Positions 38,504 to 61,003 of a stretch of DNA of 64,000 nucleotides are shown piece after piece. The position numbers and the translations under genes are program-made. The DNA comes from Sulfurovum sp. TSL6. GTDB taxonomy: Bacteria; Campylobacterota; Campylobacteria; Campylobacterales; Sulfurovaceae. A model generated the notes under the pieces. The model had not been told where the DNA came from and did not search any database. It saw nothing but the letters and a program-made list of their open reading frames with translations. How positions within the stretch are numbered: position 1 is the first letter of the stretch; every line of letters begins with the position of its first letter. Location of the stretch: the NCBI RefSeq assembly GCF_019972115.1, contig NZ_BPFJ01000002.1:434001-498000 (forward strand). Direction: 5' to 3'.

Positions 38504-38603
38504 ATGTACTAGGTAACCTGGCGATCTTCTCATTTGTTATAGAGCTATAACATCAAAGACCCATGGCTTTCTGACCCTGCCTCACAACAGGTGTAGCATT
38601 TAT
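38504..38603 (-). ncRNA. GEMM-like (cyclic-di-GMP-I type) riboswitch
   Basis: On the minus strand, 40 bp before the Tat-peptide gene. P2 is CCTGTT-GTGA-GGCAGG, a paired stem with a GNRA tetraloop at the place where GEMM-I RNAs have one. The core GTCAGAAAGCCATGGGTCTT follows, then an AT-rich P3 loop, then AAGATCGCCAGGTTACC closing the fold. This matches the GEMM layout (GGGACGCAAAGCC...GCCGGGUUGCC) with some changes in the GACGC part. Two sister copies lie at 59678 and 59823. Downstream TAGTA/TACTA arms could form a switching hairpin that competes with P1. Ligand is inferred; c-di-GMP and 3',3'-cGAMP variants exist. Confidence 0.75.
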
Positions 38604-38819
38604 CTTGTTTCACTATAAAAAAATTATAACTTGTATTAATATGATAACTCAATATTCGAAAAAACGTAACATAATTGTTATACTTTTTCATTCTTATAGC
38701 AGATAATGACTCTTTTTGATACAAAAAGAATCATTTGTTAAATATATTTTAAGAAAAATTTAAACCTAAGTTATGAATTTTTCCAAAGTGCTGTCGATTC
38801 ATGTCAAACTTTGCAGAGA
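38604..38819. other. AT-rich intergenic region between riboswitch and ribA end
   Basis: Besides the promoter above, this stretch holds a symmetric inverted repeat at 38706-38734 (ATGA-x-TCTTTTTG / CAAAAAGA-x-TCAT, 3-base loop). It lies after ribA but has no T-run, so it may be a protein-binding site or a weak terminator. No reading frame is seen. Confidence 0.45.
38623..38628 (-). promoter_or_regulatory. -10 box ahead of the riboswitch
   Basis: Perfect TATAAT on the minus strand in the context AGTTATAATTTTTT, placing a transcript start near 38616, about 13 bases before the riboswitch. The second riboswitch locus has the same arrangement at 59925-59930. Confidence 0.6.
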
Positions 38820-57701: not shown

Positions 57702-58076
57702 GGGGATGACTTGGTTTCGACTGGAGTAGTCGGGGCTATGTGCATGTCGGACTGGGCAATTCCGTTACGCGGCCCACACGCGAATAAACGCAAACAATAC
57801 AGATTATCGTCCAGCTTACGCAGTAGCGTAAGTCATTAACCCCGCTAACGCGGAGGACTGCTTCGCCGGTGAGTGTCATCTTAACCGGATTTTGAAGTAT
57901 CACATCTGATGACTATGCTCCCTGGAAGCTATGCCAGGGTGTGAGAATTTTAGCTCGTCTTGTAAAGTTTTGAGTGTAGTACAAAGCAGGATTAAAATTA
58001 ACAACACTGACTAAGCATGTAGAGTCATGGTTCTATCTATTTTAGGACAGGGGTTCAATTCCCCTCATCTCCACCA
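57702..58076 (+). ncRNA. ssrA: tmRNA
   Basis: tmRNA rescues stalled ribosomes. The 5' end GGGGATG pairs with CATCTCC near the 3' end to form the acceptor stem, and the CCA tail is encoded (58074-58076). The GACTTGG...CGACTGG D-arm and GGGGTTCAATTCCCC T-arm are clear. The tag frame starts with GCA at 57790 and ends with TAA at 57829-57831, coding ANNTDYRPAYAVA, in the style of Campylobacterota tags (ANN..., PAYA). The 3' end (58050-58071) recurs at 59961-59982, so this gene may be an integration target. Confidence 0.97.
58050..58071 (+). other. Candidate attachment site within the ssrA 3' end
   Basis: This 22-base part of the ssrA T-arm and acceptor strand matches 59961-59982 at 21 of 22 positions. 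tmRNA 3' ends are common targets for tyrosine integrases. Confidence 0.5.
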
Positions 58077-58204
58077 AACTCCAATTTAATACAATCTAAT
58101 AAAATACAAATAACCCCCTTATTTACGAACATTAAATCATATATAGTCTAACTGTGTTAGATTATTATGTATAATTATTGGTACATTAAAAAAAGGAAGA
58201 AGAA

Positions 58205-58375
58205 ATGAACAATGAAAACAAAAATGAAGTAACGGTAGTAGATATAAAGATGCCATTCATGTCAATGGTTACGTTTATGGTAAAAGCAGCTCTTGCAGCA
58301 ATTCCAGCTATTTTCATTTTAATGGTTATTTTTACATTCTTTACGGCATTTTTAGGTAATATTGCTGGTCGTTAA
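58205..58375 (+). CDS. Small single-span membrane protein
   Basis: A 56-codon gene starting ATG at 58205 after AAGGAAGAAGA. The N terminus is charged (NNENKNEVTVVDIK), followed by one long hydrophobic span (about residues 24-51) ending in GNIAGR. The ribosome site and codon use look natural. No family name is recognised. It stands alone between ssrA and tRNA-Leu. Confidence 0.62.
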   Translation: MNNENKNEVTVVDIKMPFMSMVTFMVKAALAAIPAIFILMVIFTFFTAFLGNIAGR

Positions 58376-58637
58376 TGAGATAATCTTTTAGGCTTACTCA
58401 AGTTCCATACCTCCTATGCACCCTAAGGATTTGTTCTTTTAGAACTCCATCGGTAAGACTGATACAAACGCCATTAGTGCCTCCAATAGGAACATCTAAC
58501 TGTCGCAAAGAAGAAGTATACAATGACAGAACGCATAGATATGAGTGGAAAACTATCTGCAATACAAAATCATCAAACATCAAGAAGTCTCTAAAAGTAT
58601 GCTATTGAGGGGATTTTTTTGGATTGGTTAATTTAAG
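58376..58637. other. Intergenic region before tRNA-Leu
   Basis: About 260 bp with no gene that I accept. A 61-codon minus-strand frame at 58398-58583 has no ribosome site or family resemblance. The stretch might be a decayed coding piece left from an inserted element, but no integrase or transposase motif could be read in any frame. Confidence 0.4.
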
Positions 58638-58722
58638 TGGTGCGGATGAGAGGACTCGAACCTCCACGCCGTAAAGCACCAGATCCTAAGTCTGGCGTGT
58701 ATACCAATTTCACCACATCCGC
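58638..58722 (-). tRNA. tRNA-Leu (anticodon UAG)
   Basis: The acceptor stem GCGGATG pairs with CATCCGC; the CCA end is encoded at 58638-58640. The anticodon stem CCAGA/TCTGG surrounds the loop CTTAGGA, giving anticodon UAG, which reads CUN leucine codons. The long variable arm (TGCTTTACGGCGT) and GGTTCGAGTCC T-arm are those of a leucine tRNA. It lies within the segment bounded by the ssrA 3'-end repeats. Confidence 0.95.
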
Positions 58723-58932
58723 ATGTGATTATTACAATAAGAGAGTATTCATTTTAACTTCTCTGTCGAATAATACAAAAGTTTCACTTTTGATCAAATA
58801 AGTAAAAGTCAAAAATATCATTATGCTAATATGAAATATTTTACATTGGCCCTAAAGAACTACATTAGTGTTAATAAGACATTTTACATACTCTTAATAC
58901 TGAACTATTGTAATAGAAGGACACCTTGTTTT
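58723..58932. other. AT-rich intergenic region
   Basis: About 210 bp between tRNA-Leu and the outer-membrane gene. It should hold the tRNA promoter. A plus-strand frame (58831-59064) runs into the antisense of the beta-barrel gene and is not accepted. Confidence 0.4.
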
Positions 58933-59628
58933 TTAAAATTTGTAATTTACACCTATCATTACCACTGGATAGAATTTATAATCTTCTACATCATCAATAA
59001 TTTTTTGAGTTTCAATTACAAGGTTATTATTAATTTCATCTTCAATAGGAGTTCCAATGATTAATGGATTTAAATCAGCATTTAAATCTACTTTTGGTGA
59101 ACCTTGATACATAACACCTAGGTCAAAAGAAAATCCCCAACCTTTTTCATTAGAATTGTTTCCCCATCCAATACCAAGATATGGAGCAACATCATCAAAT
59201 TCAACGTGAGTATTTAATTTACCAACTTCAGAAGCAGTATATTTATCATTACCGATTGTTATTACTTCTGATCCAAAAGGAGTAGCACTACCATCAAATT
59301 CATTACCATTATAATAAACACCACCACTTACTCTAAATGTATTTTCAAATGGGAAATAATCTACTAGAAGACCAGCATTTTTAAAATCAATATTTCCATC
59401 ATAACTAACAGTATCAACATCTAAAGTATGGCTATACTGTAAGCCATTCACATTTACTCTAGCTGAAAAACTATCACTAATAGGAGTTGCTAAATTAATA
59501 CCTACACCTAATGTTCCTACTGTTATACCAGCATTGTAATTTGATTCACCAACAGAATCTGCAAAAGCTAAACCTCCACCCATTGTTACTAAACATGTAA
59601 CTAAAGTACCTTTAAAAAAAAATTTCAT
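58933..59628 (-). CDS. Outer-membrane beta-barrel protein under tandem riboswitch control
   Basis: A 231-residue exported protein. The signal peptide (hydrophobic about 8-22) is cut after AFA. The mature part is a run of alternating amphipathic strands ending in phenylalanine (VMIGVNYKF), the C-terminal mark of an outer-membrane barrel, probably 8-stranded and OmpW/OmpA-like. A short soluble insert with NPLIIGTPIEDEINNN lies near 190. ATG at 59626-59628 follows AAGGAAC; the longer frame to 59721 only reads through riboswitch RNA. Two GEMM-like RNAs precede it. It lies between the ssrA-type repeats. Confidence 0.85.
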   Translation of the reverse strand: MKFFFKGTLVTCLVTMGGGLAFADSVGESNYNAGITVGTLGVGINLATPISDSFSARVNVNGLQYSHTLDVDTVSYDGNIDFKNAGLLVDYFPFENTFRVSGGVYYNGNEFDGSATPFGSEVITIGNDKYTASEVGKLNTHVEFDDVAPYLGIGWGNNSNEKGWGFSFDLGVMYQGSPKVDLNADLNPLIIGTPIEDEINNNLVIETQKIIDDVEDYKFYPVVMIGVNYKF

Positions 59629-59677
59629 TATCTGTTCCTTTTGACATAAAAATAAAATAGTTGTGAAAAATGAATTA

Positions 59678-59757
59678 ACTAAATTTTGATAACCTGACAA
59701 TCTTAACAAGTTAAGATCCATGGCTTTCTATCCCTGCTTCACAACAAAATAAGTTTG
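59678..59757 (-). ncRNA. GEMM-like riboswitch, second copy of tandem pair
   Basis: Downstream copy of the pair, 50 bp ahead of the barrel gene. P2 carries GTGA as its tetraloop (TTGTT-GTGA-AGCAGG); the core GATAGAAAGCCATGGATCTT, P3 pair CTTAAC/GTTAAG and the closing GTCAGGTTATC follow. It has drifted more from the GEMM consensus than the upstream copy (GATAG for GACGC; TTATC for TTGCC). Downstream, minus-strand TTCACAAC (59660-59667) is exactly complementary to GTTGTGAA in P2 (59738-59745), with a T-rich tract after it, so a competing hairpin could act as the switch. Confidence 0.68.
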
Positions 59758-59822
59758 AATTAAATAAGATTTATATGGGATAGTAAGTAGTAAAGAGAGA
59801 ATGATACATAATACACTAGTAT

Positions 59823-59907
59823 TAGTATTTGGCAACCTGGCGATCTTAAGTTAAGACCCATGGCTTTCCGTCCCTGCTTCACAACAAGTTTGGCACAACA
59901 AATATAT
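59823..59907 (-). ncRNA. GEMM-like riboswitch, first copy of tandem pair
   Basis: The best of the three copies. P1 pairs TATTTG with CAAATA (59899-59904 and 59826-59831). P2 is CTTGTT-GTGA-AGCAGG with a GNRA loop. The core GGACGGAAAGCCATGGGTCT and the closing GCCAGGTTGCC lie within one or two bases of the GEMM-I consensus. A perfect TATAAT sits about 20 bases upstream. Tandem aptamers of this class occur in other bacteria and can sharpen the response. The ligand, c-di-GMP or a related dinucleotide, is inferred. Confidence 0.77.
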
Positions 59908-59924
59908 CTATTTAAATACAAGAA

Positions 59925-59930
59925 ATTATA
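59925..59930 (-). promoter_or_regulatory. -10 box for the tandem riboswitch transcript
   Basis: TATAAT on the minus strand in TGTTATAATTTC, similar in context to the box ahead of the other riboswitch locus (AGTTATAATTTT at 38623). The expected start near 59918 is just before P1 of the first aptamer. Confidence 0.6.
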
Positions 59931-59960
59931 ACAGAAAAAGTATATGATTATTTTTAAGAG

Positions 59961-59982
59961 GGGGTTCAATTTCCCTCATCTC
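59961..59982 (+). repeat. Imperfect copy of the ssrA 3' end (attachment-site-like)
   Basis: GGGGTTCAATTTCCCTCATC and the next two bases match ssrA 58050-58071 except at one position, and a CACCA follows after an 8-base insertion. The match covers both T-arm and the tmRNA-specific acceptor strand, so it is more than the general tRNA T-loop. It lies 17 bp from the alr stop. Confidence 0.6.
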
Positions 59983-59998
59983 AAACAATTCACCAAAT

Positions 59999-61003
59999 TT
60001 AAATCACTTCTTTTCGCAGTTCAGCAGATAACGCAGTCGTCATTTCATAAGAAATAGTCCCAAACTGTTTTGCAGCCGCTTGTGCATCACTCATCACACA
60101 CACTTCTTCTTTATCTGATTCAAGAGAGATAGAGTCCATAGAAACACGTCCTAGTATAGGTAAGCCCTCACTTGTTATATAAGGTTGAGCACTGTCTCCT
60201 CTGGACCATCCGTCACCATAACCCAGATCATAGGTAGATACCGTCATATCATGTGAAGCTATGAAGTCCCCTCCGTACCCTATGCGCTCTCCATCTTTTA
60301 ATATTTTAGTTGATATCTTTTTAGCATATAGTGACATTACAGGACGTAGTGTTACTTCATCAAAAAGGTGTGGCAGTTCACTATATCCGTACGCACCTAT
60401 GCCTACACGTACTAGATCTTCATCAAAACTTTTTGTTCTAAGAATAGCTGCTGTGTTATGCGAATGTACTCTTACATGCGTAAACCCAGCTTCTTTTACG
60501 CTTTCTTTCACACGCTCAAACTGTTTTTGCTGCCAAAAGAGTTCAGAGCTTAACTCATCTGCACTACGGTAGTGGGTCATCACACCTGTAAGTTCTAACC
60601 CTTGTGCTTTAATCAAAGTACAAGCTTCACCCAGCTCATCAAAGGCTATCCCGTTACGGTGCATTCCCGTATCTACTTTGAGTTCTACTTTTGCACCTTT
60701 TTGGGCTTCTTTGATATCTTCTAATGTATTGATAGTAAAAGAATAGACCTCATCTTTTATGATACTGTCACCCAATACCAGTATCGTTTCAAATAAAGAT
60801 CTGATCACTTCTGCTTCTGCCGTTTTTCGTACCACTGCATGTCTGATACCAAACTCTGATGCCAGTCTTCCCATCAGTTCCAGTCCGTGACCATAGGCAT
60901 TGTCTTTAAGGACAATTGCGATCTTTTCAACTGAGCCAGTTTTTAGTGCAATTTGGTTAAGATTATGATAGAAATTTTGTTTATTTATTTTAATAAATGC
61001 CAT
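59999..61003 (-). CDS. alr: Alanine racemase
   Basis: Alr supplies D-alanine for cell wall. PLP lysine K33 is in [10 protein letters not shown], the family signature; [24 protein letters not shown] and the second catalytic tyrosine region (IGYGGDFIA) are present. The frame is open to 61048, but the ATG at 61001-61003 begins the normal N terminus (334 residues). There is no ribosome site; TATAAT ends 6 bases before ATG, as at ribA. It diverges from aguA across 39 bp. Confidence 0.94.

Follow-up and report, generated by a model that had tools for sequence, protein, structure and literature searches.

A tandem c-di-GMP-I leader precedes a barrel-like gene

The window analysed here, a stretch of 64,000 nt from Sulfurovum sp. 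TSL6, carries on its minus strand a barrel-like protein gene with a long leader (Table 1). In the direction of transcription the leader consists of a TATAAT hexamer, aptamer 1, a 63-nt spacer, aptamer 2 and a 56-nt stretch with AAGGAA, followed by the ATG of the barrel gene at 59628. The hexamer is a likely -10 element by its sequence and position only; a promoter scan returned no -35/-10 pair there. The initial annotation had placed two GEMM-like units in series between a TATAAT box and a barrel gene, and the search with the Rfam model RF01051 (c-di-GMP-I, or GEMM-I) bore this out, with matches for both copies above the gathering score of 35 bits: aptamer 1 reached 59.1 bits (E-value 5e-9) and aptamer 2 reached 38.3 bits (E-value 6e-4).

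Table 1 Features of the tandem leader and its surroundings (positions in the window)
Feature	Position	Strand	Evidence
TATAAT, likely -10 element of the leader promoter	59925..59930	-	hexamer and position only
Aptamer 1, c-di-GMP-I (GEMM-I), intact	59828..59904	-	RF01051 59.1 bits; canonical fold; 0/57 deviations
Spacer with A/U-rich hairpin (59828-59804 region), probable expression platform of aptamer 1	59765..59827	-	folding; homologous leaders
Aptamer 2, degraded c-di-GMP-I	59685..59764	-	RF01051 38.3 bits; compared with 21 homologous aptamers, lacks 14 nt and has 5 transitions
Deletion junction, single remaining TTGTTGTG copy	59740..59747	-	alignment of 11 tandem leaders
Expression platform of aptamer 2 (degraded), plus AAGGAA as the barrel gene's ribosome-binding site	59629..59684	-	alternative pairings partly lost
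Barrel-like protein gene (231 aa, signal peptide), the controlled gene	58933..59628	-	ORF; PF13505 E 8e-5, below cut-off
1.87-kb ssrA-alr segment (tRNA-Leu, small ORF, barrel gene, tandem leader)	58078..59951		absent from the 2 nearest relatives
Degraded copy of the ssrA 3' end (84%)	59952..59988	+	direct repeat with 58040-58077, flanking the 1.87-kb segment
Third c-di-GMP-I aptamer of the window	38509..38607	-	RF01051 50.4 bits

The third aptamer of the window lies 46 nt upstream of a short ORF whose product starts with a signal-peptide-like stretch; genes for a secreted FG-GAP-like protein and then a lipoprotein follow. The suggestion that all three copies serve envelope genes holds within the window (barrel; secreted FG-GAP-like protein and lipoprotein) but does not extend to all 17 RF01051 aptamers of the whole genome (2.25 Mb), which also stand before GGDEF, PAS and other genes. 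One of these aptamers (C2:597015-597112, minus strand) lies 41 nt 5' of a GGDEF-domain gene, where feedback on c-di-GMP synthesis is possible. Another (C2:351169-351255, minus strand) ends just 13 nt 5' of an ATG, with a GAGGAU motif adjoining the P1 3' strand, and P1 could directly mask the ribosome-binding site. Since the genome encodes 13 GGDEF domains, c-di-GMP is expected in this organism. Across the genus at least one c-di-GMP-I aptamer was found in 72 of 78 genomes, with a maximum of 21 per genome, indicating a large RNA-based c-di-GMP regulon; our literature search on riboswitches in Sulfurovum, Epsilonproteobacteria or Campylobacterota, which covered a limited collection of papers, found nothing relevant.

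Aptamer 1 retains the sequence and fold features of the class

By its sequence aptamer 1 is an intact c-di-GMP-I aptamer, for which ligand binding is predicted. Its minimum-free-energy fold is the canonical P1/P2/P3 three-way junction, with a P1 of 6 bp (59904-59899 paired with 59831-59826), and the equivalents of the ligand-contacting G20, A47 and C92, taken from the Rfam alignment, from conserved columns and by direct reading, are G at 59894, A at 59867 and C at 59832. None of the 57 columns that show no variation across the 21 aligned aptamers apart from aptamer 2 (variable P3 loop excluded) deviates in aptamer 1, in agreement with its initial description as the unit closest to consensus, with a 6-bp P1. 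Its folding energy was no lower than that of shuffled sequences; what supports the assignment is the covariance-model score together with conservation. The gathering thresholds of the related families c-di-GMP-I-GGC (RF03167, 57.5 against 59 bits) and c-di-GMP-I-UAU (RF03168, 38.3 against 65.9 bits) were both missed.

The spacer that follows folds into a hairpin (-6.4 kcal/mol, z -1.9, with 9 of 200 shuffles folding at least equally well) that starts within the P1 3' strand of aptamer 1 and so overlaps P1. The region has a counterpart in the homologous tandem leaders described below, and the hairpin is the probable expression platform of aptamer 1; a scan of 59550-60100 for canonical intrinsic terminators that might serve as the platform found none.

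Homologous leaders keep two intact aptamers

Ten further tandem leaders, with 74-78% identity to that of the window, were found in the same genome (C1:792079-792328) and in four related species (G003; two in G075; three each in G076 and G035). All ten keep two intact aptamers, each with its own platform in sequence, and cmscan gave 59-62 bits for their aptamers, with a single exception at 46. These ten and the window's leader form the alignment of 11 used below; a further tandem leader, from a genome (G109) that belongs to a different genus within the family, has two aptamers that both pass Rfam and was left out of it.

The other tandem leaders precede lipoprotein genes, except for three that stand before a secreted-protein gene. 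Among the seven lipoprotein genes DUF4382 was identified in the two tested against Pfam, and the rest were assigned by sequence resemblance; the secreted-protein gene had no Pfam match in the part tested, and its sequence resembles subtilisin-like proteases. The comparison with related genomes thus recovered the same pair of aptamers, intact, but never in front of a barrel homologue: none of the homologues of the barrel gene in 13 other genomes (31-52% identity) has an aptamer upstream, and the idea of an orthologous tandem leader at the same gene in relatives was dropped.

We also observed single-aptamer leaders (C1:799508-799675, L103, L104 and L105) that resemble the tandem type as far as the second aptamer's P1 5' strand, where L105 is shorter, and diverge from there on. 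Since the divergence lies inside the second aptamer, this leader type may have undergone repeated loss or gain of second aptamers.

A 14-nt deletion removes the core of aptamer 2

In the intact leaders the second aptamer contains two TTGTTGTG repeats 14 nt apart. The second aptamers of the ten other leaders read TTTTGTTGTGCCAAAC(T/C)TG(T/C)TGTGAAGCA, with one single-base variant, whereas that of the window reads TTTTGTTGTGAAGCA: exactly 14 nt between the TTGTTGTG copies are gone and one copy remains. This loss is confined to aptamer 2 of the window. An exact match to the junction was found in the window only among 397 genomes of the phylum, and none was found in the GTDB contig collection, from which the window's own genome may be missing. 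The deletion takes out the ligand-contacting end of J1/2 and the 5' strand of P2, while P3 and the P1 strands are retained, and the remaining RNA folds without a three-way junction; neither J1/2, P2 nor the set of ligand-contact bases is intact. Moreover, aptamer 2 deviates at 16 of the 57 invariant columns (11 deleted and five transitions: C33T, G34A, G46A, C58T and C66T), compared with 0-2 in every aptamer other than the window's pair. C66 is the equivalent of C92 (59689), the base that pairs with c-di-GMP, and is U in aptamer 2. The loss of the binding-pocket core leads us to infer that aptamer 2 no longer binds c-di-GMP; its remaining hairpins could have a structural role. The second unit, first described as diverged, is indeed the degraded partner of the pair, though what sets it apart is not mere divergence but a specific deletion.

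It is unlikely that both aptamers still bind c-di-GMP and act pseudo-cooperatively, the second being merely weaker. Tandem c-di-GMP-I doublets are common and should make the response steeper (PMC9481103), aptamer 2 can still form a P2-like UUUGUU/AGCAGG hairpin, and its score lies above the Rfam gathering score. That score is, however, accounted for by P3, the GUGA loop and the part of P2 that remain, while the deletion has removed the outer P2 pairs and the J1/2 strand that carries G20, what is left of the P2 5' strand draws on P1 bases, and four invariant positions besides C92 have changed.

We consider it very unlikely that an error in sequencing or assembly produced the deletion and masks two intact aptamers. 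A single assembly is available for the locus and the deletion sits between direct repeats, where assemblies can slip, but a slip would not explain five transitions at positions invariant in 21 homologues when the neighbouring aptamer 1 has none.

Finally, we give almost no credence to aptamer 2 as a natural variant of altered specificity for c-di-AMP or cGAMP, making the tandem a two-input gate: the Rfam alignment does place A and U at the ligand-contact positions, the same pair as in the engineered Vc2 G20A/C92U, which reportedly binds c-di-AMP, and c-di-GMP only at about 4900 nM (PMC9049102), but it does so by filling the 14-nt gap with upstream spacer, so that the apparent A20 is spacer slid into register, and the variant reading would make the P1 and P2 5' strands overlap, G20 and C92 are kept in all other aptamers of the genome, no related leader has the A20/U92 state, and no DAC domain (DAC-type c-di-AMP synthase) was found in the genome. 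Altered specificity was accordingly rejected on the alignment with the intact homologous leaders and the lack of a DAC domain, and the apparent A20/U92 is judged an artefact of the deletion.

The barrel gene and the ssrA-alr segment

The protein encoded from ATG 59628 matches PF13505 (OMP_b-brl) at an E-value of 8e-5, below the curated cut-off. The conserved CCATGG of aptamer P3 yields an ATG at 59721 which, in the case of aptamer 2, shares the reading frame of the barrel gene (a 31-codon extension). This ATG is probably without meaning and was rejected as the start of a longer barrel ORF; the signal peptide and the ribosome-binding site fit ATG 59628.

The genes ssrA and alr are direct neighbours in G075 and G076, the two relatives that rank nearest when judged by alr identity. 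In the window 1.87 kb separates them, holding the barrel gene and its leader together with tRNA-Leu and a small ORF. A second, degraded version of the ssrA (tmRNA) 3' end lies on the alr side, 1.9 kb from ssrA; the hairpin that it contains was considered as an alr terminator and rejected as part of the ssrA copy. By its sequence the segment looks like an integration scar at ssrA, although no integrase was seen there. Given this, and since the same place in G035 and G028 holds other genes (another barrel-like gene and a lipoprotein-like gene), a gain in the window and a loss in G075/G076 are both possible. Whether by gain or by loss, the combination of this leader with a barrel gene has been seen only in this species so far. 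The small ORF of the segment (58206-58376, plus strand) would encode about 56 aa with a hydrophobic middle and has a plausible ribosome-binding site.

A probable change from two-sensor to single-input control

The leader of the window very probably belongs to a shared tandem c-di-GMP-I type in which aptamer 2 has here been destroyed by the 14-nt deletion and substitutions, leaving single-input control. Its ancestor would have had two intact aptamers with a short platform behind each, and such a pair, sensing one ligand, would have given a steeper response.

How the second module might have worked is suggested by the seven intact lipoprotein leaders. Their P1 3' strand (CAAAAUGAA) can pair with UUCUUUUG just 3' of it (7-8 of 8 pairs per sequence) and J1/2 (GUUGUGC) can pair with GUGCAAC (7 of 7 pairs in each); across these seven similar sequences the variation lies on one side of the pairings only. 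When P1 was forced to form, the freed stretch paired with the ribosome-binding site and the predicted accessibility of that site dropped in most intact leaders, suggesting that the intact second module is a translational OFF switch. In this model, computed by RNAfold without ligand or tertiary energies, P1 would form in the presence of c-di-GMP and release an anti-Shine-Dalgarno stretch to cover the ribosome-binding site; without ligand that stretch would be held by the P1 3' strand.

The alternative pairings, kept in the seven intact leaders, are partly lost in the window, where forcing P1 costs 10.5 kcal/mol and leaves the accessibility of the ribosome-binding site almost unchanged; on these predictions the second module looks locked open. 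Unable to bind c-di-GMP, it would leave the ribosome-binding site open, and the barrel gene is most likely under the control of aptamer 1 alone. Of the two outcomes offered by the initial annotation, cooperative control or decay, the sequence supports decay; cooperation finds no support in the window because aptamer 2 lacks the ligand-contacting junction and one strand of P2. Cooperative control is likely the ancestral state, kept in the ten homologous leaders.

Discussion

The c-di-GMP-I class and its tandem doublets are well known (PMC9481103; PMC12452182). What this case adds is the clear decay of one tandem member with the molecular event still visible, along with a family of related leaders in which the question can be tested: the decayed copy and the intact homologous leaders form a natural comparison for the contribution of the second aptamer. 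The case also illustrates that, where an Rfam match above threshold shows altered contact bases, the cause can be a scar left by a deletion and not a new specificity. We raise, tentatively and as somewhat less probable than its opposite, the idea that tandem c-di-GMP leaders of the Sulfurovum-like group are portable cassettes, copied before new surface-protein genes and tuned by losing one aptamer; if so, the window would show the process under way, beside single-aptamer leaders such as that at C1:799508-799675.

Compared with known systems, aptamer 1 is like the RF01051 family in score, in its three-helix fold and in all three ligand-contact bases, whereas aptamer 2 is a damaged copy without J1/2 and the P2 5' strand. 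As in the tandem c-di-GMP-I riboswitches already described, of which 347 doublets and 12 triplets have been reported (PMC9481103), the triple tandem Bc3-5 of Bacillus thuringiensis among the known examples (PMC4759541), separate aptamers stand in series before one gene, and the ten homologous leaders fit this arrangement in sequence. The window differs in that pseudo-cooperative control takes two functional aptamers and its second is broken; with one aptamer predicted to be functional, the steep two-sensor response should be lost. Finally, in the Rfam alignment aptamer 2 shares its apparent A and U with the engineered Vc2 G20A/C92U and with natural cGAMP-type GEMM-I variants. A variant sensing c-di-AMP or cGAMP would need an intact pocket with A20 (and U92) and a ligand made by the cell; here the pocket is deleted and the DAC domain absent, and the A and U come from a deletion, not from substitution in an otherwise intact pocket.
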